A stretch of DNA of 37,270 bases from positions 1 through 37,270 of the IMG/VR virus record IMGVR_UViG_3300041955_000624; one strand, written 5' to 3'. The notes under the pieces are model-generated. The model was not told the origin of the DNA and did not search any database. It worked only from the letters and a program-made list of their open reading frames with translations. Position 1 is the stretch's first letter. Each line of letters begins with the position of its first letter. The DNA comes from a virus. The translations under genes were made by a program, and so were the position numbers. Positions 1,694-37,270 of the stretch are shown piece by piece.

Positions 1694-2119
1694 TCAGGGG
1701 ATCGGACGTTCGAAAACGTAGATGGTCGATTGATCCGCGTCGGCCTCGATGCCGGAACGCTGAAAGCTGACCGAAGCGAACCTCCAGCCGTTCGATCCCG
1801 CCCAATTGAGAATTGGGGCAAGGCCCTGGTCCTTTTTCCCGGCCAGCTTTTCGGAAAGATTTTCAAAGGCTTTTTCGCCCTGGTGCGACGGCGGATCGCC
1901 GTGAGCGCTTTCAAAAAGGCAGTCTTTGGCGTCCGAACTCGGGCGCCACCATGCCGTGGCGTCGCCAATCGACGGGATCTCATTCACCTCCAGCGTGGCG
2001 TATTGCCATCGCTGCATCGGCGGCGAGCCGGGAACCGATTGGGCCGTAAGCTCCTTGCCCTCGATCACCAGGGCGACGGCGGCGAAGACGAACGCGAAAA
2101 CGATGAGCGGACGTTTCAT
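1694..2119 (-). CDS. Secreted small protein, DUF4177-like, probable moron
   Basis: 141 residues, read from 2119 down to 1694. The N-terminus is a typical signal peptide (MKRPLIVFAFVFAAVALVIEG), and GGGAGAGG lies just before the ATG as ribosome-binding site. The mature part contains RWQYATLEV, LNWAGSNGWRF and YVFERP, the pattern of DUF4177-type small domains (Trp/Tyr strand, LN..G..GW, closing strand); this assignment is tentative. A weak promoter can be drawn on the minus strand (TTGGCC at 2171-2176, TAAACT at 2147-2152, 18-bp spacer). It is the only minus-strand gene in the late half, convergent on the late terminator, with its own promoter region. That is typical of cargo genes expressed from a prophage. 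Confidence 0.75.
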   Translation of the reverse strand: MKRPLIVFAFVFAAVALVIEGKELTAQSVPGSPPMQRWQYATLEVNEIPSIGDATAWWRPSSDAKDCLFESAHGDPPSHQGEKAFENLSEKLAGKKDQGLAPILNWAGSNGWRFASVSFQRSGIEADADQSTIYVFERPIP

Positions 2120-2246
2120 GGCCTCTCCCGTGAATGTGAAGCCGTCAGTTTAGCCAGGTCGGGCACTGAGGGCCAAAAAAACGGACGTTGGCGACTCTCC
2201 CGACGGGCGGATGGCCGATATTGGGGGTGACTTTCAATCCTGGCTC

Positions 2247-2284
2247 GCGGCGTCCAGGCCGTTGCCCTGGACGCCGCTTTTTTT
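2247..2284 (+). terminator. Rho-independent terminator upstream of the control region
   Basis: A perfect 12-bp stem (GCGGCGTCCAGG / CCTGGACGCCGC) with a 7-nt loop is followed by seven T. It points in the plus direction although no plus-strand gene lies between 2120 and 2246. It would stop read-through from the late operon or antisense transcripts of the minus-strand gene before the early promoters. Confidence 0.85.
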
Positions 2285-2546
2285 ATTTCTTCACCCCCCC
2301 CATTCCGACGCCAGCCAGCCCGCCTGGACGCAACGTCGCCACGATTGGGGGCCGGGACGGGCGAATGGGCATGCCGGCTCGGCGACGCGCCAGCGTTGCA
2401 GCTATTGCGATAACCGAAGCGCGCATGCCGGCGCCTTCCGGCGATCGCGGAAGTTAGGTATCTGAGCGCAAAAGCGAATGCGGGCTTGCGTGAACGTAAA
2501 GCTATTATTATCAGCAACTTAACATAACATGCAGACCAAGATCGGC

Positions 2547-2574
2547 TTGACTTTGTTAGGGTGGTGGTGATAAT
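2547..2574 (+). promoter_or_regulatory. Predicted sigma-70 promoter for the early operon
   Basis: TTGACT (2547-2552), a 16-bp spacer and GATAAT (2569-2574), in a locally AT-rich stretch that stands out from GC-rich surroundings. It would give a leader of about 370 nt before the first gene at 2949. Confidence 0.6.
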
Positions 2575-2751
2575 AACGGCGGTCTCAGAGCAGGCGCGGC
2601 GACGGCCTCGGGAAGCGGTGGTGGGTGCGATAACTCGGCGGCGAATTTGGGGTGTGGCGGATTGCCACACCCGGCCGAAAAGGTCGCCCATGAAGCCCTT
2701 TGCTTGAGTGCCGGCAACCCGGCCCGCGCCTGTTCTGAACGTGCCCTGCTC

Positions 2752-2780
2752 TTGACATGACTGGAGAGGCGTGGTTAAAT
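2752..2780 (+). promoter_or_regulatory. Predicted second early promoter overlapping an inverted repeat
   Basis: TTGACA (2752-2757, consensus), a 17-bp spacer and TTAAAT (2775-2780). The spacer and -10 box coincide with the left arm of a 17-bp inverted repeat (2763-2779), so a protein or DNA structure using that arm would compete with RNA polymerase. Confidence 0.55.
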
Positions 2781-2924
2781 CTGCACAGAGTTGATCCCTT
2801 TCGCAGGGGATCAACGCCGGCTTGCGAGGCCGGTTCGTGTGGTGACTCAGTGGCGGTGACAAAGCACTGAGTTTAACCACGCCTCTCCCGTCACGCCACT
2901 TCGGCGGGCGGAGAGCTTTGTCAC
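2763..2924 (+). ncRNA. Cloverleaf-like structured element with alternative pairing
   Basis: The outer arms GGAGAGGCGTGGTTAAA (2763-2779) and its exact complement (2872-2888) form a 17-bp stem. It encloses three hairpins: 9 bp at 2790-2815, 6 bp (one G-U) at 2816-2834 and 8 bp at 2845-2872. The third loop contains GTGACAAAGC (2856-2865), exactly complementary to GCTTTGTCAC at 2915-2924. The segment 2849-2860 can also pair, with one bulge, with 2890-2901. These pairings are mutually exclusive or pseudoknotted. It could be a leader RNA switch, a structured small RNA or a DNA cruciform; no known RNA family was recognised. Confidence 0.5.
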
Positions 2925-2948
2925 TACGGTCAGAAGGTTTGGGCCATC

Positions 2949-3254
2949 GTGGCCCTGGCGATTGCGCGAACGTATTCCTTCCCCACGGCCAATTCCGGCC
3001 TCTCGCTTCACCAACTCAATGAAAATCTCCGCATGGCGGATTCCGCCATCGAGCAGGCCGCACGCCATCTGGCCGATGCGATGAACCACCTGGCCCCGAT
3101 CCGCATGGGGGCCGCCAAGCGAATCCGCCACCAACTTTGCGAGCAATACCGGGCGGTCGATGCCGCCCGACGCAATTTATCCCTCTTCGTCGCCCAGCGA
3201 AGCCGGGAGCTTTTTTCCAACCCATCATTCGCCAATTCCGAGGAATCGCTATGA
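2949..3254 (+). CDS. Small helical protein of unknown function, first early gene
   Basis: 101 residues from a GTG start at 2949. The protein is largely alpha-helical by composition (Ala, Arg, Glu, Leu), with a stretch rich in His and Met around residues 40-55, and no recognised motif. Its stop overlaps the ATG of the replication initiator (ATGA at 3251-3254), so the two are translationally coupled. The start is uncertain; an internal ATG at 3033 is also in frame. Confidence 0.5.
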   Translation: MALAIARTYSFPTANSGLSLHQLNENLRMADSAIEQAARHLADAMNHLAPIRMGAAKRIRHQLCEQYRAVDAARRNLSLFVAQRSRELFSNPSFANSEESL

Positions 3255-4285
3255 ACCCGACAGAGCCACGGATGGCTGCTGATTCAGAACCGGATCGACC
3301 GATGCACACCACGATCGTTCGAAGCGATGAAGTTCCGGCCCTTCAATTCGATCTCCACGCCCGCGCCTACATGAAGTTCATGATTGACCTTCGAACCAGC
3401 GGGCTTGCCAAGCATCTCAACGGCGCCGAGATGCGCGTGTTGGGCGTCCTTCTCGAATCCCTGGACATGGAGAAAATCGCCGGCGGCGAGCTGCTCACGC
3501 ATCCAATCGCCAAAAGCTGGATCGCCAAATGTTCCGGTCACTGGCTCGGGACGGTGGGGCGGGCGATTGACGAGTTGCTGCTGGCTGGGATCGCCATTGT
3601 AGAGGCCGGTGGGAGGGGGAGGGTGAACGAATACCGGCTGAGAATCCCCAGGCAGAATTTCCACAAACGAATCGACTCCCGGCGGGCGACGGAGGAGGAG
3701 AAAGTTGCGCAGGCGCGCCGACTCAAGTTGTGCCGGCACGTCAGGGGTAGCCGTGCCGGCACGTCATCACCTGACGTGCCGGCACGTCATTCAATTAGCG
3801 CGCCTGCGCAACTTAGCATTTTTGACACTACAGATATCTCTGGTGGTGGTATTAATACTATCTATACACCACCACCATCCGCGCCGGACTTCGAATGGAC
3901 GGAGGAGCTGAGGGAGGTGGTGGTGGGGCGGCTGCGCCAATGGGAAATCCCGGAAAGAAGAGTCAGAGGGAGCAAGGCGGCTTCCATCGAGGACCTTCTT
4001 TCGAGCGGGATCGGCCCGCTGATCGCGTTGGCCGCCATCGACGCCGCTCAGCAACGGCCCAAAGACAAACAGGCGGGCTACGCCATCACCCGGCTTCGCG
4101 ATCCCGGACTTATCCCGGATGCTTCGTTGCGAAGGGCTGAAGCCAAGCTATCCAGCCGCCGGCAAGTCACCCTAACCTCGCCAGGTCAGTCACGCGGTAC
4201 CACATCGTCGGAACCGGCGATGCCGCCGATCGACCAAGATCGCATCAAGCGGATCGCGGCGGAACTGGAAGCGGGGCGGCAATGA
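3251..4285 (+). CDS. Replication initiator, lambda O/RepO-like, winged helix
   Basis: 344 residues. Residues about 35-135 form a winged-helix type domain (YMKFMIDLRTSG, then LAKHLNGAEMRVLGVLLES and AIDELLLAGIAIVEAG), as in plasmid and phage initiators that open with an HTH_36-like fold. A low-complexity linker (about 150-210) follows, which at DNA level contains three 23-bp-spaced iterons and an AT-rich hairpin. A C-terminal helical part ends in a basic/acidic tail. An origin embedded in the middle of the initiator gene is the arrangement known for lambda O. It is coupled by ATGA overlaps to its neighbours on both sides. The family assignment rests on architecture and the iterons, not on a database match. 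Confidence 0.7.
   Translation: MNPTEPRMAADSEPDRPMHTTIVRSDEVPALQFDLHARAYMKFMIDLRTSGLAKHLNGAEMRVLGVLLESLDMEKIAGGELLTHPIAKSWIAKCSGHWLGTVGRAIDELLLAGIAIVEAGGRGRVNEYRLRIPRQNFHKRIDSRRATEEEKVAQARRLKLCRHVRGSRAGTSSPDVPARHSISAPAQLSIFDTTDISGGGINTIYTPPPSAPDFEWTEELREVVVGRLRQWEIPERRVRGSKAASIEDLLSSGIGPLIALAAIDAAQQRPKDKQAGYAITRLRDPGLIPDASLRRAEAKLSSRRQVTLTSPGQSRGTTSSEPAMPPIDQDRIKRIAAELEAGRQ
3703..3876 (+). other. Predicted replication origin: three iterons, flanking inverted repeat, AT-rich hairpin
   Basis: GTGCCGGCACGTCA occurs at 3730, 3753 and 3776, an exact 23-bp period. The last copy is part of an 18-bp palindrome (3772-3789). A perfect 16-bp inverted repeat flanks the array (AGTTGCGCAGGCGCGC at 3703-3718, complement at 3798-3813). 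Just downstream lies an AT-rich stretch and a 9-bp hairpin (GGTGGTGGT / ACCACCACC, 3842-3876) with a 17-nt AT-rich loop, a plausible unwinding element. All of it lies inside the initiator gene. Confidence 0.7.
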
Positions 4286-4680
4286 ATATCTGCCTCGATC
4301 CAATTTCGGGACGCGCCATGGGCGGCGAGGAAAAACAGCGTATCGAATTCGAGCAAGAGGCGCGCAGATGCGCAATTGCAGCAGCGGTGGCCCGCGAAGC
4401 GCAGATCGATGCGGCCCTGGCGAATCTTTCGGATGAAACGCTGGGAAGAATCCGCACGCGGCTGGCCGTCGAATTGGGGATGATCAATCCCCGGCTCGGC
4501 GAGAGCGCCCACAAAATGGACCCGCGCAAAGCCCCGCACATGCGGGCGAAAGTTTGGGAGATATTTTTTGCAACCGGGGCTGAAACACAAACAAACCCGG
4601 CCCGAGCCGGTCGGGCCGCGGGCCGAGCGTCGTCAACACCGGAATCTGTATCGGCACAAATCACGGAGGAAATTCGATGA
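4282..4680 (+). CDS. Hypothetical early protein
   Basis: 132 residues, coupled to the initiator by ATGA and to the methyltransferase by ATGA (4677). The N-terminal half is charged and helical (EEKQRIEFEQEARRCAIAAA), the C-terminal third Ala/Arg/Thr-rich and probably disordered. No motif recognised. Its position between the initiator and a ParB-like fusion suggests a role in replication, possibly as a helicase-loader-like partner, but nothing in the sequence shows this. Confidence 0.6.
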   Translation: MNICLDPISGRAMGGEEKQRIEFEQEARRCAIAAAVAREAQIDAALANLSDETLGRIRTRLAVELGMINPRLGESAHKMDPRKAPHMRAKVWEIFFATGAETQTNPARAGRAAGRASSTPESVSAQITEEIR

Positions 4681-6191
4681 GCGTTGCAACGCTGAGGGCC
4701 GCGACGATCAACGGCAAGCCGCCGATTAACGGGGACGGATACCGGAAATCCGCCGTCGCCGATCGCGTGATTCGAGTGAGGCCGGACGTCGAGACCGAGC
4801 GGCCGAAAATCAAAATCCATCCGCTGGCGGCGGAATTTCCGCGCATGGATGACGCCGAACTCGCGAGCCTTGCGGCGCGGATCAAGCTGGCCGGCAGGCC
4901 GATGCAGTTCCTTTTGGATGGGGAAATGCTGATCGACGACGCGAACGCCGCCAGGGCTTGCGAGATGGCCGGCGTTGAGTTAGACTTCCACCAATGGAAC
5001 GGCGAAGGCTCACTGCCCGAGATCATCGCGAAGAACAATCTTCCGCGCGTGCTGGATTACGATGCGCGGGCCGCGATCGCCGTTCCATTCGTCGAAGCCG
5101 CTGCCCAAGAAGGCTCTAAACGGCAGCGACAGGCTCTATCTGGAATTGCGTCAAAAACCGCGATTCCATCAAATCCCTCCGTCGTCCCAAATTTGGGACG
5201 ACGGGCGGACGGATATGATCGGGCGGTCGATCGATTCGCCCCGATCTTCGACGTTTCTTCCGGCTCGCTCTGCCTCGCGCAGCGGTTCTGTCGCGAGGAT
5301 CCCGCCAATTTCTGGCGGCTGAAACTCCCCCGCAGCCATCCCCAAAAGTTGAAGCTCAGCCGCGTCCAGGGCCTGCTTCAAAAAAATGAGAGGCTGAAAA
5401 AAATCGTCGGCATCGAGGAGAAACTTCCCCGGCGCAAATCATCGGACGATCTCATCGCGTGCGGGGACTGCCTGAAGGTGATGCCGAATCTTCCAGGAGG
5501 GAAATACGATTTGATCCTGCCCGACCCGCCTTACAACAATCGCACTGTTTATGACTCCGACCCCACCGGCGACAACCTGAAGGACCGCGACTATCTCAAT
5601 TGGTGCAAGAACTGGATGAGCGAATGCGCGCGGCTGCTCAAGCCGACCGGGTCGATTTTCGTGTTCATCGACGATCGCTGGTCCGACTTCTTCGGCATGG
5701 CGCTGAGGGAACTGCGCGACCCGCCGCTCTATCGCCGCAAGACGATCGTCTGGTGGGAGGAGTTCGGCCAGCACCAAAAAACGAATTTCGGGAACGCCGC
5801 CCGCTACGTCCATTACTTCACGCGCAATCCCAAGCAATTCACCTGGAACGGCGAGGAGATTTTGGAGCCGTCGAAGCGGCAGACCGAATATCACGACTCG
5901 CGCGCCCAGCCGATGGGTCGGGTTCCGGACAACGTGTGGGCCTATCCCCGCCAGGTGGGGAACAAGGCCGACACCGTGCCCTGGCCCGATCATCCGCCGC
6001 AGATTCCGGCGGCGCTGCTGGAGCGGATCATCAAAGTCGCGAGCAATCCGGGCGACAAGGTGTTCGACCCCTTCGCCGGCAACGGATCGGCGGGGCGGGC
6101 GGCGCTGAAGCTCGGCAGGGAATTCTTCGGGATCGAGCGGAGCAAATTGTACGCGGAACAAGCGAGGCTATGGATCGCGTGGCAAGTTTAA
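4677..6191 (+). CDS. ParB-like domain fused to beta-class DNA N4/N6 methyltransferase
   Basis: 504 residues. Residues about 42-125 resemble the ParB/Srx N-terminal fold (IHPLAAEFP, a helix with LASLAARI, GVELDFHQW, EIIAKNNLPR). The usual DGRNR-type loop is replaced by DDANA. A linker (about 130-250) follows. The methyltransferase domain has DPPYNN (D283-Y286, motif IV) before FDPFAGNGSAG (from F463, motif I/SAM binding), the order of beta-class N4-cytosine/N6-adenine enzymes. It would methylate phage DNA against host restriction or mark the origin. ParB-MTase fusions are known in phages and mobile elements. The linker DNA carries a perfect 26-bp palindrome (5179-5204). Coupled to the upstream gene by ATGA. 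Confidence 0.88.
   Translation: MSVATLRAATINGKPPINGDGYRKSAVADRVIRVRPDVETERPKIKIHPLAAEFPRMDDAELASLAARIKLAGRPMQFLLDGEMLIDDANAARACEMAGVELDFHQWNGEGSLPEIIAKNNLPRVLDYDARAAIAVPFVEAAAQEGSKRQRQALSGIASKTAIPSNPSVVPNLGRRADGYDRAVDRFAPIFDVSSGSLCLAQRFCREDPANFWRLKLPRSHPQKLKLSRVQGLLQKNERLKKIVGIEEKLPRRKSSDDLIACGDCLKVMPNLPGGKYDLILPDPPYNNRTVYDSDPTGDNLKDRDYLNWCKNWMSECARLLKPTGSIFVFIDDRWSDFFGMALRELRDPPLYRRKTIVWWEEFGQHQKTNFGNAARYVHYFTRNPKQFTWNGEEILEPSKRQTEYHDSRAQPMGRVPDNVWAYPRQVGNKADTVPWPDHPPQIPAALLERIIKVASNPGDKVFDPFAGNGSAGRAALKLGREFFGIERSKLYAEQARLWIAWQV
5179..5204. repeat. 26-bp perfect palindrome within the methyltransferase gene
   Basis: The arms are CCGTCGTCCCAAA and its complement, with no spacer, centred on CAAATTTG. 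It falls in the linker between the ParB-like and methyltransferase domains. It could be a binding site, or a palindromic insertion tolerated in a flexible linker. Confidence 0.8.
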
Positions 6192-8184: not shown

Positions 8185-8583
8185 ATGAAGCCGAACCAGA
8201 TCGTTTATCGCGTCGTGCGCCTTCACAACTTCAAGGGCGCCGGGTCCATCGTGACGCTGACGGCGGAGGAAGGCGCGGGCGAGCATCGGCTGCGCATCAT
8301 CTCGCCGGCCGAATCGCTCCAGGTCATCAATCATCATTCCCTCGACGGCTTCGAGTTCGGATGCGCCCGGGCCGGCGCGGCGCAGCTTGCCCTGGCGATG
8401 CTGCTGGACTTCACCGAATCGAAATCCACCGCGGCCCATCTCTACCAGGCGTTCAAGATGGATCACGTCCTCCGCTGGGCCGGGGCCAGCGCGTCGATCG
8501 ACGGGGAAACGATCGGTCGGTGGATCGATCAAATGCAACGCGCGGCGGCGCACGCCGAGCTTCGGCAGGGGGGCAGGCTATGA
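8185..8583 (+). CDS. Small conserved-type phage protein (DUF6166-like)
   Basis: 132 residues. A beta-rich N-terminal half (VYRVVRLHNFKG, GEHRLRIISPAESLQVINH) is followed by SLDGFEFGCARAGAAQLALAMLLD and a helix with AHLYQAFKMDHVLRW. The pattern 'NHSPDGFEWGY..GPAQLALALLLD' is typical of DUF6166-type proteins found in phages and plasmids; the assignment is from memory and tentative. Function unknown. Coupled to the next gene by ATGA (8580-8583). Confidence 0.6.
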   Translation: MKPNQIVYRVVRLHNFKGAGSIVTLTAEEGAGEHRLRIISPAESLQVINHHSLDGFEFGCARAGAAQLALAMLLDFTESKSTAAHLYQAFKMDHVLRWAGASASIDGETIGRWIDQMQRAAAHAELRQGGRL

Positions 8584-9806
8584 AACCTTCTCCTAAAGAG
8601 CTTACCGCGAAGAAGCGAAGGGCGCGAAGTGACGCGAAGAAGATCGTTGATCCCCAAACCGATGCCGATTGGATGGACGCCGTAGATATGGCGCACGCAG
8701 CGCTCTCGCTCGACGCGGCCCGCCAATTTGGGCTTGTGGCCGGGGGGCCAATGGTGAACGTCGAGAGATGCGTTTGGATTGTGGAAAAGGGGAAAGCCAT
8801 GGGATTCGTGCCCAGGGCCGATGCGATTGAACGGTTTATAGTTCAGCTTCGCGCAACTTCGCGACCTTCGCGTCTTCCCGGTAAATCTTCACGGGACGGG
8901 TTCACGTTTATTGAAGTGCTTTTCGCCGTGATCATCCTCGGCATCGGGCTTGTCATGCTGGCCGGGATGTTCAGTACGGGCATGATCGGGACGGGCGCGG
9001 TGATGACGGACTCGCGAATCAACGAAGTTCTAGCCGATGCGCATGACACGATCGACACCCAGGCCGCATCGCTGGGGACTTCCGCTTTGCTCCCCGGTCA
9101 GGTCAATTCCAAGTTCATGCCGATCGTGATCCCGCTGCCTCCATCGTTCGCGTCGCGATTGGGCGATCAGGTGCTGCCATCGGACAACCGTTACGGTTAC
9201 ACCGCGTTCTACCGCCGCGACTCGATCAACAACGCCTTCGCGCAAATCTTCGTGATCGCGTTGCGCAACGAGAATTTCCCGCTCTACTCAAAAGCGATCC
9301 CCATCCCGCCGTCACTTTACGGCGCGCCGCCGCCGGCCATGCCGTCCATCGCCGGCACTCTTGCGTTCGACCAAAAATCCGGCACAAGCACGATCGCGTT
9401 CGCGTCGACGGTCAGCAACGCGGCGCAAGGCGCGTTCGTGTTGATCGCTGACGACGGGACAAACCCGCAGACGGAAACATGGACGGATGACAAGGGCGTG
9501 ATTCACACCTCGATCATTTACAACAACGCGCCCATGACCGGCAGATTTCTACGCCTTGCCTCCCAACTTCCAACTGACAACTTGCACTTGTCCTTCTCCC
9601 TTGAGCCAGGCCACGACCTGACCGCCAGCGATTGGGCATCACTCAACGCTGACGGGAACACGAGCGGGGTCGTGCTGACATGGCTGATCGGAAGGGCGCC
9701 GATGCCAAACGCGGCGATGGGAGATTTCTCCGGCCCGTTCGGCGGAGCGAACCAGGACGTCGGGGCGAATTCCTCCTTCACGGCCGTCAACCGGGCGAAC
9801 AACTGA
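8580..9806 (+). CDS. Pseudopilin-like protein (prepilin GFTFIEVL motif) in a fused frame
   Basis: 408 residues as one open frame. Residues 1-88 look like a separate small cytosolic protein whose start region (8602-8641) is phrase repeat. 8846-8893 is a second, inverted phrase repeat translated in frame. Then comes a prepilin signature: S-S-R-D-G107|F108-T-F-I-E112-V-L and a 20-residue hydrophobic helix with GIGLVMLAGMF, as in planctomycete PilV/GspI-like pseudopilins. The globular part is beta-rich and has an LEPGHDL element typical of that group. A prepilin would not carry a 107-residue leader, so translation probably restarts at the ATG at 8799 (preceded by AAGGGG), giving a 34-residue leader. 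Prepilin peptidase would be supplied by the host. A pilin-like gene in a phage is highly unusual. Confidence 0.75.
   Translation: MKPSPKELTAKKRRARSDAKKIVDPQTDADWMDAVDMAHAALSLDAARQFGLVAGGPMVNVERCVWIVEKGKAMGFVPRADAIERFIVQLRATSRPSRLPGKSSRDGFTFIEVLFAVIILGIGLVMLAGMFSTGMIGTGAVMTDSRINEVLADAHDTIDTQAASLGTSALLPGQVNSKFMPIVIPLPPSFASRLGDQVLPSDNRYGYTAFYRRDSINNAFAQIFVIALRNENFPLYSKAIPIPPSLYGAPPPAMPSIAGTLAFDQKSGTSTIAFASTVSNAAQGAFVLIADDGTNPQTETWTDDKGVIHTSIIYNNAPMTGRFLRLASQLPTDNLHLSFSLEPGHDLTASDWASLNADGNTSGVVLTWLIGRAPMPNAAMGDFSGPFGGANQDVGANSSFTAVNRANN
8602..8641. repeat. CGCGAAG phrase repeat at the start of the pseudopilin frame
   Basis: TTACCGCGAAGAAGCGAAGG and following units are translated as a run of Lys/Arg/Ala (TAKKRRARSDAKK) at the N-terminus of the fused frame. 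Confidence 0.8.
8846..8893. repeat. Inverted CGCGAAG phrase repeat just before the prepilin motif
   Basis: CTTCGCGCAACTTCGCGACC, CTTCGCGTCTTCCCGG and TAAATCTTCACGGG, in frame, encode LRATSRPSRLPGKSS just ahead of the prepilin cleavage site. Elsewhere in the window this unit is intergenic, so it marks the old gene boundary. Confidence 0.8.
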
Positions 9807-12280: not shown

Positions 12281-12619
12281 GTGGCCGCTGAACCGGACAT
12301 CTGCGATCGAATCGCGGCCGCGGAGCTTCTCGAATGCGGTCCGCTCAAGCCCCTGATGGATCTGCTGACCAGCGATCCCGACTCCTGCCTCACCGCCGCG
12401 GGAAGAATCAACGTCAAGGGAGTGGCCCGGGCGCTGGGCATCAGCCATTGGGAAGCAAGGCAAATCGTGCAAGAAGCCCGCGACCTCCTGGAACCGGACC
12501 GTTCGATCACCACTGGCTCCCAACATTCAAGTCGGATCCATTCGGGCGGGCGAGCGACCCAGACCGACTCCTGCAATTGCTCAAGACCAACACGGGCAAT
12601 CGCAACCGCCGGCGCATAG
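12281..12619 (+). CDS. HTH-containing first half of a split sigma-like gene
   Basis: 112 residues from GTG 12281. Residues 1-75 are protein-like and contain a helix-turn-helix (VKGVARALGISHWEARQIVQEA). After about residue 75 (near 12500) the frame becomes unlike a protein, while the -1 frame carries on with a plausible sequence (next entry). A one-base deletion, an assembly error or a -1 frameshift near 12495-12510 would join them; I see no slippery heptamer there. Confidence 0.5.
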   Translation: MAAEPDICDRIAAAELLECGPLKPLMDLLTSDPDSCLTAAGRINVKGVARALGISHWEARQIVQEARDLLEPDRSITTGSQHSSRIHSGGRATQTDSCNCSRPTRAIATAGA

Positions 12620-12978
12620 CGCTGGCGCTCTATCTGATCTCGATGAACGTGGGCAAGCGTTTCCACTACGCCGACGATCGGGCCGAGGACGCCGCGGCCG
12701 AGGCGCTGCTGCTGGCCATCGAGCAGATCGAATTGTTCGACCGCCGGCGCCGGCACGCCGCCGGATATTTCGCCACGATGATGCGCAACAAGATGCGCGA
12801 GCTGCTGGCGGGCAACGATTACCTGGTCAAACGGCATCGGCGGCGCAGGCTCAAGCTGGACAGCCTGGACATGGGGGGCGATCGCCAGCCGGTGAAAAGC
12901 TTCGTCACCGCCAAGAAGTGGAAGCTGCGATATAACGTCGTCCACCCCGCGCTGCGCGCTGGATATGCGCAAAGGTGA
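12577..12978 (+). CDS. Sigma-70 region 2-like second half of a split gene
   Basis: 133 residues if begun at TTG 12577; the frame looks coding from about 12502 and no good start exists before the ATG at 12643. The core matches sigma region 2: a helix with LALYLISMNVGKRFHY, an acidic segment DDRAEDAAAEALLLAIEQIELFD and AGYFATMMRNKMREL, like the -10-binding helix (FATYA...NAIRE). A basic tail follows. No region 4 is seen after it; an HTH lies upstream in the other frame. The gene end overlaps the minus-strand tRNA-like element by 5 bp. It could be a decayed or frameshift-regulated second sigma factor. Confidence 0.5.
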   Translation: MLKTNTGNRNRRRIALALYLISMNVGKRFHYADDRAEDAAAEALLLAIEQIELFDRRRRHAAGYFATMMRNKMRELLAGNDYLVKRHRRRRLKLDSLDMGGDRQPVKSFVTAKKWKLRYNVVHPALRAGYAQR

Positions 12979-14110: not shown

Positions 14111-14182
14111 AACCGCCAAGACGCCAAGACGCCAAGGAAGACCGAATTCTTGGCGTCTTGGCGTCTTGGCGGTTCGATTTTT
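14111..14182. terminator. Long CGCCAAG hairpin followed by T5
   Basis: A perfect 26-bp stem built from AACCGCCAAGACGCCAAG units (14111-14136) and its complement (14149-14174) with a 12-nt loop, then CGATTTTT. It may act as a terminator, isolating the leftward operon from the rightward genes. The same repeat type forms the hairpin before the tape measure gene (33819-33896). The rest of the 13823-14243 gap holds the minus promoter and module 3. Confidence 0.65.
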
Positions 14183-16540: not shown

Positions 16541-16803
16541 AAACGCCCAAAATCGGAGACAAAGTCGCCTATGTCACGGGATTATCGTTCGAAGGGATTC
16601 CGATCCTCCGCGACGCCGAGATCGTGGCGATTCAAAACGCATCCTCGCTTACATGCGATCTGTGTGTTGGATCGCTCCAGGCCAGGTCTGTGCCATATTC
16701 GCGCGATCGGGCCAGCCCGCATTCGTGGTGCTGGTACAACGCCGCCGCGGCGGCCAGGGAAGCATGGCAGGAAAAACAGCGGCGGGCGAAGCTCGAAATC
16801 TGA
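16537..16803 (+). CDS. Small hypothetical protein
   Basis: 88 residues, coupled to the integrase by ATGA. The N-terminus KIGDKVAYVTGLSFEGIPILRDAEIVAIQ looks like a small SH3/KOW-like beta barrel; then SLTCDLCVG and a tail with HSWCWYNAAAAAREAW. No family is named with confidence. Confidence 0.6.
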   Translation: MKTPKIGDKVAYVTGLSFEGIPILRDAEIVAIQNASSLTCDLCVGSLQARSVPYSRDRASPHSWCWYNAAAAAREAWQEKQRRAKLEI

Positions 16804-16810
16804 AACCCGA

Positions 16811-17329
<519 letters not shown>

Positions 17330-17429: not shown

Positions 17430-17732
17430 GCCGATGGGGGGGCAAAACGCTGGATCGATATGTGGCCGCTCGCCGCGGCGGCGATCGCCGTCGCGATCAC
17501 GTTCGGCGCCTTGCAGGAGCAGGTCAGCCGGCTTCGCGCGGACGTCACCGACATCCAGGCCGTCAAGCCGGACGTGCTTAAAGACCAGATCGATAAGCAA
17601 AAACAGGCCGAGGATCGGTTCCAGGCGGACGTGAAGGACGCGCTGAAGAGCATCGATCAGGACATGCGCCGGATCGACCGCGACGTGGCCCGGATCATCG
17701 GCAGCCTGCATATCGACGAGGCCAAGCCATGA
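17427..17732 (+). CDS. Membrane-anchored coiled-coil protein, leaderless-type GTG start
   Basis: 101 residues. One transmembrane helix (about 13-30, PLAAAAIAVAITFGALQ) is followed by a heptad-rich coiled coil to the C-terminus (EQVSRLRADVTDI, DRFQADVKDALKSIDQDMRRID). The shape fits small phage i-spanin, holin-like or structural anchor proteins. Because it is coupled by ATGA to a sigma factor gene, a membrane-bound anti-sigma or regulatory partner is another possibility. No family match is claimed. Confidence 0.7.
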   Translation: MADGGAKRWIDMWPLAAAAIAVAITFGALQEQVSRLRADVTDIQAVKPDVLKDQIDKQKQAEDRFQADVKDALKSIDQDMRRIDRDVARIIGSLHIDEAKP

Positions 17733-18385
17733 GGACGCAGCCGGTGGGCGGGGCGAACGACGATGATGCGACCATCGAGCAATTGGTCTCGCGATGGCGG
17801 AGATGCCGGCGGCGGCGTGAGAAGGATCGGATCTTCGCGGAATTATACCGCAAGGTGTTTGCCGCCGCGATGCGAACGTATCTGGCGACGGCCGGCGGCT
17901 TCACGGCGGATCGCGACGAGGTGGAGAGCGACGTGAATTATGCGATCTTCCGGGCGGCGACGGCGGCCCGCGAGGGGCAGCCGCTTTTGCCGCTGTTCCA
18001 TCGCGCCAGTCGCAACGCCGCGCTCGATGCCAATCGGGGACGGGAGAGGCTGAGGCGATCCAATGGGCTGCCGGTCCTGCCGATCGAGGAAAATATTTTG
18101 GGGCTGGCCCATTGCCCCGATCTGATCGGCGCCCTCATCGTTAAGGAGGAGAGACGGCGGATCTGGCGGAAGATTCGGCGGCAACTCGATCGGCGCGGAT
18201 GGCACGTATTGAAGAGGTGGATGCTGCTGGGGTGGAGCAAGGAGAGGATCGCCGAGAGTTTGAATCGGCGGTTCCCGCGCGGACGAAGATGGAAGCCGGC
18301 GGCCGTGAAACACCTGGTCTTTAGAGCGCGGAGCAAGTTGCGATTGAAGAAAAAAACGTCGAGCGCAAATTCGGGGCGTGGCTAA
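17729..18385 (+). CDS. ECF-like RNA polymerase sigma factor
   Basis: 218 residues. Region 2-like part, about residues 30-115: DRIFAELYRKVFAAAMRTYL, an acidic segment DRDEVESDVNYAIFRA, and FHRASRNAALDANRGRERLRR, the pattern N.ALD..R...R found after region 2.4 in ECF sigmas. Region 4-like part, about 145-210: RRQLDRRGWHVLKRWMLLGWSKERIAESLNRR followed by AVKHLVFRARSKLR, an HTH ending in the typical RARxKLR. Virion gene operons of some phages use such factors. It is placed after promoter module 4 and just before the virion operon, so it probably directs RNA polymerase to the four modules and perhaps to the late promoter. Confidence 0.75.
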   Translation: MRTQPVGGANDDDATIEQLVSRWRRCRRRREKDRIFAELYRKVFAAAMRTYLATAGGFTADRDEVESDVNYAIFRAATAAREGQPLLPLFHRASRNAALDANRGRERLRRSNGLPVLPIEENILGLAHCPDLIGALIVKEERRRIWRKIRRQLDRRGWHVLKRWMLLGWSKERIAESLNRRFPRGRRWKPAAVKHLVFRARSKLRLKKKTSSANSGRG

Positions 18386-33638: not shown

Positions 33639-33820
33639 CTGGTTGCCCGTGGGAATCGATCGACCGCGACACCTTGCGGCTGATGAAGTTTGTGCGTCTG
33701 GCCGAACGCCACCTGCCGATCGCGGGCGGAATGCTTGACCAGACGCAAAGTTTTTGTGAGGCGCTCGATTGGATCACGATCGAGCGGCGAAGGTGGAAAG
33801 CGGAGTTAGGAATTAAGTAA
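33108..33820 (+). CDS. Tail assembly chaperone, -1 frameshifted long form with cysteine-rich domain
   Basis: 237 residues if ribosomes slip back one base at AAAAAAAAAA (33461-33470). The extension has CSKC (33506-33517), CVVC and CESC (33602-33613) with CNG and CGGAG spacing reminiscent of the DnaJ zinc domain. A helical end RLAERHLPIAGGMLDQTQSFCEALDWI follows, which resembles the C-termini of other frameshifted chaperones. The extension has no start or SD of its own. The -1 slip between gpG and gpGT is a conserved feature of siphophage tail operons. A zinc-binding extension is not something I know from the lambda protein. Confidence 0.75.
33461..33470 (+). promoter_or_regulatory. A10 slippery sequence for -1 frameshifting
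   Basis: Ten A after GGC, read as GCA AAA AAA AAA in the short-form frame. It allows tandem slippage into the -1 frame, which stays open to 33820. It sits where lambda-like phages carry their slippery site. A homopolymer sequencing error is the alternative. Confidence 0.75.
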
Positions 33821-33896
33821 ACCGCCAAGACGCCAAGGGCGCCAAGGCGCATCTGATTTCTTCTTGGCGATCTTGGCGTCTTGGCGGTTCGATTTT
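33819..33896 (+). repeat. CGCCAAG hairpin between chaperone and tape measure genes
   Basis: AACCGCCAAGACGCCAAG (33819-33836) and its exact complement (33872-33889) form an 18-bp stem, extended inwards by CGCCAAGG/CTTGGCG, followed by CGATTTTT and at once the ATG at 33898. The right arm covers the only SD-like sequence (GGCGG), so the hairpin may limit translation or terminate part of the transcripts. Same repeat as 14111-14182. Confidence 0.8.
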
Positions 33897-36601: not shown

Positions 36602-37270
36602 ACGGAATTCCAGATCACCGAAGAGTTTGTGAACGAGTTCAACCGGATCCGGGCCAAGCTGGACGGGATGAATGGGTTCGGCGTGAGCAACACGCTCACG
36701 TCCATCACCATCGGGGACAACACCGTCGGCGTGGATGTCTCGCCGCAACAGGGCGAGCTGCTGCTGGCGGCGATCATCGGCGCGGAATCGGGCGGCGGGT
36801 ATTATCAGAGCTCGATCCTCTACGGCAACAGCAACGGCGGCAATGGGGGAAGCAACAGCAATCCGCCGGGATACGACACCTTCCAACTTCAGAGCCAGGT
36901 CAATCAAAGCGGCAGCGACGGACCGAAGCCCAAAACGAATCCCAACGGCAGCTGGGTCAACAATGCGCTGGTGGTGAACATGGCCGAGCCGTATGTCGGA
37001 TGGCCAGCCGGCGGCGGCGGCGCCCCGGGCAGTCACATTCTCTGGGGCAATACCGCGGACGTCATTTACGTCATCGGGCGCGTGATGGGCCAAACGAAGG
37101 AGACGAAGCCGCGCACGATCATCTACGTGAACAACTGGCCGCTGTATCCGTGCATCGCCAAGATCACCGGCGTTTACCAGGGAACCTACGGCGGCGTTTA
37201 CTATGGGCGAATCGCCCAGGGCCAATTCGCCAGCTCGGGGAACTTCGGATTCAACAATCTCCTCAGCACC
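36599..37270 (+). CDS. Tail protein, N-terminal part (continues at 1-512)
   Basis: Open to the end of the window; joined through the terminal overlap it makes a 351-residue protein. The N-terminus TEFQITEEFVNEFNRIRAKLDGMNGFG is helical. NTLTSITIGDNTVGVDVSPQQGELLLAAIIG follows, then a Gly/Ser/Asn-rich loop, WVNNALVVNMAEPYVGWPAGGG and DVIYVIGRVMGQTKETKPRTII. No family is recognised. Placed after the tape measure and one other tail gene, so tail tip or fibre. The ATG lies in a phrase repeat. Confidence 0.8.
   Translation, partial: MTEFQITEEFVNEFNRIRAKLDGMNGFGVSNTLTSITIGDNTVGVDVSPQQGELLLAAIIGAESGGGYYQSSILYGNSNGGNGGSNSNPPGYDTFQLQSQVNQSGSDGPKPKTNPNGSWVNNALVVNMAEPYVGWPAGGGGAPGSHILWGNTADVIYVIGRVMGQTKETKPRTIIYVNNWPLYPCIAKITGVYQGTYGGVYYGRIAQGQFASSGNFGFNNLLST
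37143..37270. repeat. Terminal direct repeat, right copy (circle closure)
   Basis: Matches 1-128 except for one base (37269). The coding frame is preserved across the join, which supports a circular molecule of about 37,142 bp. Confidence 0.93.

Follow-up and report, generated by a model that had tools for sequence, protein, structure and literature searches.

A probable iteron-type replication origin inside an orphan gene of an uncultured phage genome

Why should an open reading frame (ORF) of a phage carry, near its middle, the same word three times at exactly even spacing, directly followed by an unusually AT-rich stretch? We address this question for a locus near one end of a 37,270-bp virus sequence (IMG/VR record IMGVR_UViG_3300041955_000624; the window, analysed over its whole length). 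On the basis of the evidence set out below, we conclude that positions 3702-3877 are probably a replication origin (theta-type, iteron class) that lies inside the gene of its own initiator and is acted on by the encoded protein.

The first and last approximately 127 bp of the record (1-127 and 37143-37270) are near-identical, with one mismatch near the end, and an open frame of 353 amino acids crosses the join of the two ends. The record is therefore most simply read as a complete, circularly mapping genome of around 37,142 bp plus a duplicated end. The genes recognized include those for a gpA-type terminase, portal, protease, major head protein and tyrosine integrase, from which we take the phage to be tailed and probably temperate. 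Omnitrophota and Planctomycetota MAGs are among the genome matches, as are many Firmicutes. The relatives of the terminase share at most 44% identity and are thus too distant for a comparison of iterons. Nearly all genes are on one strand, and no helicase, primase or polymerase gene was recognized among the ORFs scanned.

The genome has several further features of interest. In the ORF at 8361-9806, residues 177-200 match the prepilin N-terminal methylation motif (PF07963), and the true start is probably internal; a pilin-like protein is unusual for a phage genome. A sigma-factor-like ORF (12334-12978) has a weak Sigma70_r2 match just under the Pfam cut-off, and another (17729-18385) was judged sigma-factor-like by eye only. 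There are two DNA methyltransferase genes, at 4677-6191 (N6_N4_Mtase) and 16571-17329 (Dam-type). The first of these contains a 26-bp perfect palindrome, CCGTCGTCCCAAATTTGGGACGACGG, at 5179-5204, the 18-bp core of which is present in one unrelated IMG/VR contig; it adjoins 5094-5175, the stretch of lowest GC3 anywhere in the 15 other genes that were scanned. Two more perfect inverted repeats with a length of at least 17 bp are found at 14111-14176, with several registers, and at 33820-33890. Upstream of the initiator operon, the intergenic segment 2750-2935 has a multibranched fold with a 27-nt closing stem (2753-2779 / 2872-2898; z -5.3) and no Rfam match, and is possibly a leader RNA or control element.

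The array itself is compact (Table 1). Three copies of GTGCCGGCACGTCA, identical over 14 bp, follow one another at exact spacings of 23 and 23 bp, as a preliminary description of this DNA had stated, and the last copy widens, also as described, to a perfect 18-bp palindrome, TGACGTGCCGGCACGTCA. Apart from the reverse reading of this palindrome, the 37,270-bp record contains no further exact copy of the 14-bp word. The array is enclosed by an inverted repeat, AAGTTGCGCAGGCGCGC, which had been given as 16 bp in length; it is indeed perfect, and extends over 17 bp. The AT-rich hairpin noted after the array is also present, with the arms TGGTGGTGGT and ACCACCACCA on either side of an AT-rich loop. 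Both arms of the 17-bp inverted repeat hold a degenerate core-like site, the left one exactly 23 bp (one period) before iteron 1 and the right one 24 bp after iteron 3. Matches to the core at 7 or more of 10 positions occur at 0.7% of positions, and the two arms are not independent of each other; the sites may act as weak outer iterons, bind a second protein or have a structural role. We also considered a single 113-bp dyad and rejected it, as the centres of the array (3757.5) and of the 17-bp inverted repeat (3758.0) differ, so that the whole is not one perfect dyad.

Table 1 Features of the candidate origin and its flanking ORFs
Feature	Position	Strand	Remark
Presumed replication initiator, 344 amino acids	3251-4285	+	Orphan protein; coding signal flanks the candidate origin segment
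Left arm of 17-bp inverted repeat	3702-3718	+	Holds degenerate core-like site GCGCAGGCGC at 3707, 7/10 matches
Iteron 1, GTGCCGGCACGTCA	3730-3743	+	
Iteron 2, GTGCCGGCACGTCA	3753-3766	+	
Iteron 3 (3776-3789) within 18-bp perfect palindrome TGACGTGCCGGCACGTCA	3772-3789	+	
Right arm of 17-bp inverted repeat	3798-3814	+	Core-like site GCGCCTGCGC at 3800, 7/10 matches
Presumed unwinding element, AT maximum	3810-3869	+	AT content 67%
Hairpin TGGTGGTGGT (3841-3850) / ACCACCACCA (3868-3877)	3841-3877	+	Closes the AT-rich segment
Next ORF, 132 amino acids, translationally coupled	4282-4680	+	Helicase-loader role suggested by position only

The repetition is far beyond chance expectation. Three 10-bp words within 200 bp occur at a mean of 0.017 per Markov-simulated genome, three clustered 12- or 14-bp words were seen in none of 60 simulations, and perfect 17-bp inverted repeats have a mean of 0.007 per simulated genome. 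Palindromes of at least 18 bp are expected 0.45 times per simulated genome; in a GC-rich genome such as this one, the 18-bp palindrome is therefore not significant alone and matters only in that it extends the repeat. Similarly, long inverted repeats are found at three other places in the genome, so an inverted repeat is by itself no marker of an origin. A scan for three or more 9-bp words at spacings of 17-28 bp returned this array as the sole one in the window and none in 20 stretches (approximately 350 kb) of terminase-related phages. The exact-word detector is simple and misses more-degenerate arrays, including that of lambda itself, so the empty control reflects the rarity of exact arrays and not an absence of iteron origins in those phages.

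Selection at this locus acts on the DNA and not on the peptide. A spacing of 23 bp is not divisible by three, so each copy is read in a frame of its own; the copies fall in codon phases 2, 1 and 0 of the ORF and yield the unrelated peptides LCRHVR, RAGTS and PDVPARH, and a repeated peptide thus cannot explain the repetition. The conclusion also draws on a collapse of GC3 beside the array: the 20 codons at 3818-3877 have a GC3 of 0.15, compared with a minimum of 0.30 among 5,449 20-codon windows from 15 other genes. With nine other genes as its training set, a codon model finds in-frame coding signal on either side of the segment 3700-3880 and a loss of it within; the frame stays open throughout. 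The same segment holds the most AT-rich 60 bp of the genome, with 67% AT versus a genome mean of 39%, and this maximum begins 21 bp past the last iteron.

The array occupies 46-52% of the ORF that contains it. At both of its ends this ORF is joined to a neighbour by an ATGA junction: its ATG overlaps the upstream ORF, and its TGA shares bases with the ATG that starts the next. The 344-amino-acid product is an orphan, with no Pfam, PHROG, NCBIfam, PDB, phage, plasmid or genome match. We found no relatives in IMG/VR, GTDB genomes, INPHARED (searched at E values of 0.01 and 10), PLSDB or PDB, in 58 related phage or genome records, or in 392 genomes of the phylum of a terminase-bearing Planctomycetota MAG; tblastn on phages at E values up to 10 returned only matches of 22% coverage with E values of 3 or worse. 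O-type and RepA_N profiles in Pfam, PHROGs and NCBIfam gave no match even at an E value of 10. Comparison by hhalign with ten O-type or replisome-organizer initiators gave a weak alignment, collinear with the DNA-binding domain of O, at a probability of 2.4%. AlphaFold2 (AF2) run with no alignment gave poor models (pLDDT of 42 for the whole protein and 52 for the N-terminal half), with which Foldseek identified no fold match. Relatives were likewise not found for the product of the 132-amino-acid ORF, which stands in the place of the lambda helicase loader P and may, judging by that position, share its function, or for the methyltransferase protein. As the 344-amino-acid protein has no homologue in these searches, the term 'initiator' is taken from layout only. 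The preliminary description had spoken of an iteron origin in a lambda O-like initiator gene: its anatomy (phased repeats, AT maximum and GC3 collapse) and layout bear this out, whereas homology to O does not (no profile match and an hhalign probability of 2.4%), and with no detectable homology 'O-like' covers layout only.

How might such an origin work? What we obtained here is the anatomy of the site, the constraint at the DNA level and the match in layout to lambda O; the protein–DNA steps we infer by analogy. Dimers of the product of the ORF at 3251-4285 would use their N-terminal halves to bind the three palindromic sites, which recur every 23 bp and are presented on about the same face of the helix. 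The resulting nucleoprotein complex would strain and open the adjoining AT-rich segment at 3810-3869, and the C-terminal half, possibly together with the 132-amino-acid product, would recruit the replicative helicase of the host, which is presumed to be used because no phage helicase or polymerase was recognized. We propose that the origin sits in the part of the gene that encodes a linker. Circular GC skew, a check suggested in the preliminary description, has no turning point at 3.7 kb and so lends the origin no support; the signal is masked because nearly all genes are on one strand. A variant that we consider doubtful is that the initiator belongs to a new and unrelated family that arrived at the lambda plan by convergence, with the 17-bp repeat and the sites at 3707 and 3800 forming a symmetric five-site array or a cruciform with a function that lambda does not have, for example bidirectional helicase loading or switching between bound and extruded states.

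Several explanations that need not involve an origin have to be weighed against this reading. The sites could be operators, with the palindromes bound by a regulator, either the ORF product or some other protein, that controls transcription or blocks readthrough, and with replication starting elsewhere, for example in the AT-rich intergenic region near 2499. Perfect GTGCCGGCAC-type palindromes two helical turns apart do resemble repressor operators, another locus (L177) has two operator-like AATAGTGCCGGCACTATT palindromes, and the second AT maximum of the genome, at 2499, lies beside the only promoter-like match. However, operators are normally found at promoters, whereas this array is 480 bp inside a gene within which the promoter scan had no match; the AT maximum and GC3 collapse beside the array would be left unexplained, and we found no iteron-like repeats in 2100-3100. 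We therefore consider operators unlikely. The RNA provides a different argument, as 3702-3820 can be drawn as one long nested hairpin followed by TTTTT (3819-3823), which might be a structured RNA element of the initiator mRNA or a hairpin that controls its transcription, and the fold of 3695-3880 (-97 kcal/mol versus -55 kcal/mol for shuffles, z -9.2) is strong. Such folding is, however, automatic when palindromes are repeated within an inverted repeat, and the iterons of lambda likewise form the most stable hairpins of gene O (PMC7466680). A hairpin needs neither the exact 23-bp phasing nor directly repeated GTCA arms, a terminator at this position would cut the initiator gene and there is no Rfam match; we judge this explanation to be less likely still.

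Two further readings are very improbable. Perfect inverted repeats of terminal type around approximately 80 bp, in a genome with repetitive-looking sequence elsewhere, would fit the in-frame insertion into the gene of a miniature mobile element, MITE or REP-like, bounded by 17-bp terminal inverted repeats. Against such an element, the genome has no second copy and no target-site duplication is visible; neither the paired 14-bp iterons nor the 18-bp palindrome has a match in IMG/VR, and the 199 genomes of the phylum tested gave only short matches at chance level. An inserted element would also leave the adjoining AT-rich coding segment unexplained. A pair of the 10-bp core does occur in IMG/VR, at 13 loci that are unrelated and for the most part coincidental occurrences in other coding genes. 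We give the same slight probability to a site that serves the ParB-like/DNA-methyltransferase protein (4677-6191), either in partition, like parS, or under control by methylation, and that would not necessarily be an origin. The gene for this protein belongs to the same operon, 0.4 kb downstream, and palindromic sites suit such proteins, but the ParB-like appearance of the N-terminal half was judged by eye and the profile search supports a methyltransferase domain only, nothing links the protein to the iteron sites and the adjoining AT-rich segment fits an origin better.

In-gene iteron origins are already known, and the case for one in this orphan initiator gene is well supported. Its identification assigns an origin and an initiator function to an otherwise unannotatable gene of a complete, uncultured phage on DNA-level evidence alone. 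The combination of helically phased repeats that change reading frame with a local collapse of GC3 after them separated the site cleanly from approximately 350 kb of other phage sequence, and this signature could help to find initiators that homology searches miss.

Three known systems place the origin within the initiator gene. In RepA_N plasmids of the pSK41 type, four Rep boxes lie centrally in rep and encode a dispensable linker, which connects a winged-helix domain at the N terminus to a C-terminal domain that is host-specific (PMC5703833), and the iterons are semi-palindromic (PMC7145576). The origin described here shares the (semi-)palindromic iterons and their central position in the gene; RepA_N plasmids, however, belong to Firmicutes, and our protein has no RepA_N Pfam match (E values up to 10) and no plasmid match. 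In Bacillus phage SPP1, oriL in gene 38 combines direct repeats with an AT-rich unwinding element inside the initiator gene (PMC6316719). Repeats and an AT-rich element are likewise found together within the gene here. SPP1 encodes its own loader and DnaB-type helicase, neither of which was recognized in our genome, and we found no sequence relation between the two.

The third system is the origin of lambda and its Stx and lambdoid relatives. Lambda iterons are imperfect inverted repeats (PMC7466680) that bind O dimers (PMC5043065, PMC7466680), and O binding opens a neighbouring 40-bp A+T-rich region, after which P and DnaB are brought in (PMC5043065). As lambda iterons are themselves inverted repeats, the earlier view that a palindromic iteron core is distinctive was overstated. 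The two origins do differ: there are three iterons here and four in lambda, the iteron sequences are unrelated, the core here is an uninterrupted palindrome, the perfect 17-bp inverted repeat around the array has no counterpart in lambda and no similarity to O is detectable in the protein. The same measurements on lambda O place its four annotated iterons, spaced by 20, 24 and 23 bp, at 39-48% of the gene; the 40-bp AT maximum of the gene begins 3 bp after the last iteron. Other O-type genes have arrays in the same part of the gene, with spacings of 21/21 bp (HK225), 24/24 bp (CBP1), 21/23 bp (K63) and 20/24 bp (Yersinia 21.09), and in three of these four the AT maximum is downstream of the array. 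The locus described here has the same plan: iterons 20-24 bp apart in the middle of the initiator gene, each an inverted repeat, an AT-rich unwinding stretch immediately downstream and translational coupling of the initiator gene to the next, as at the O–P junction.
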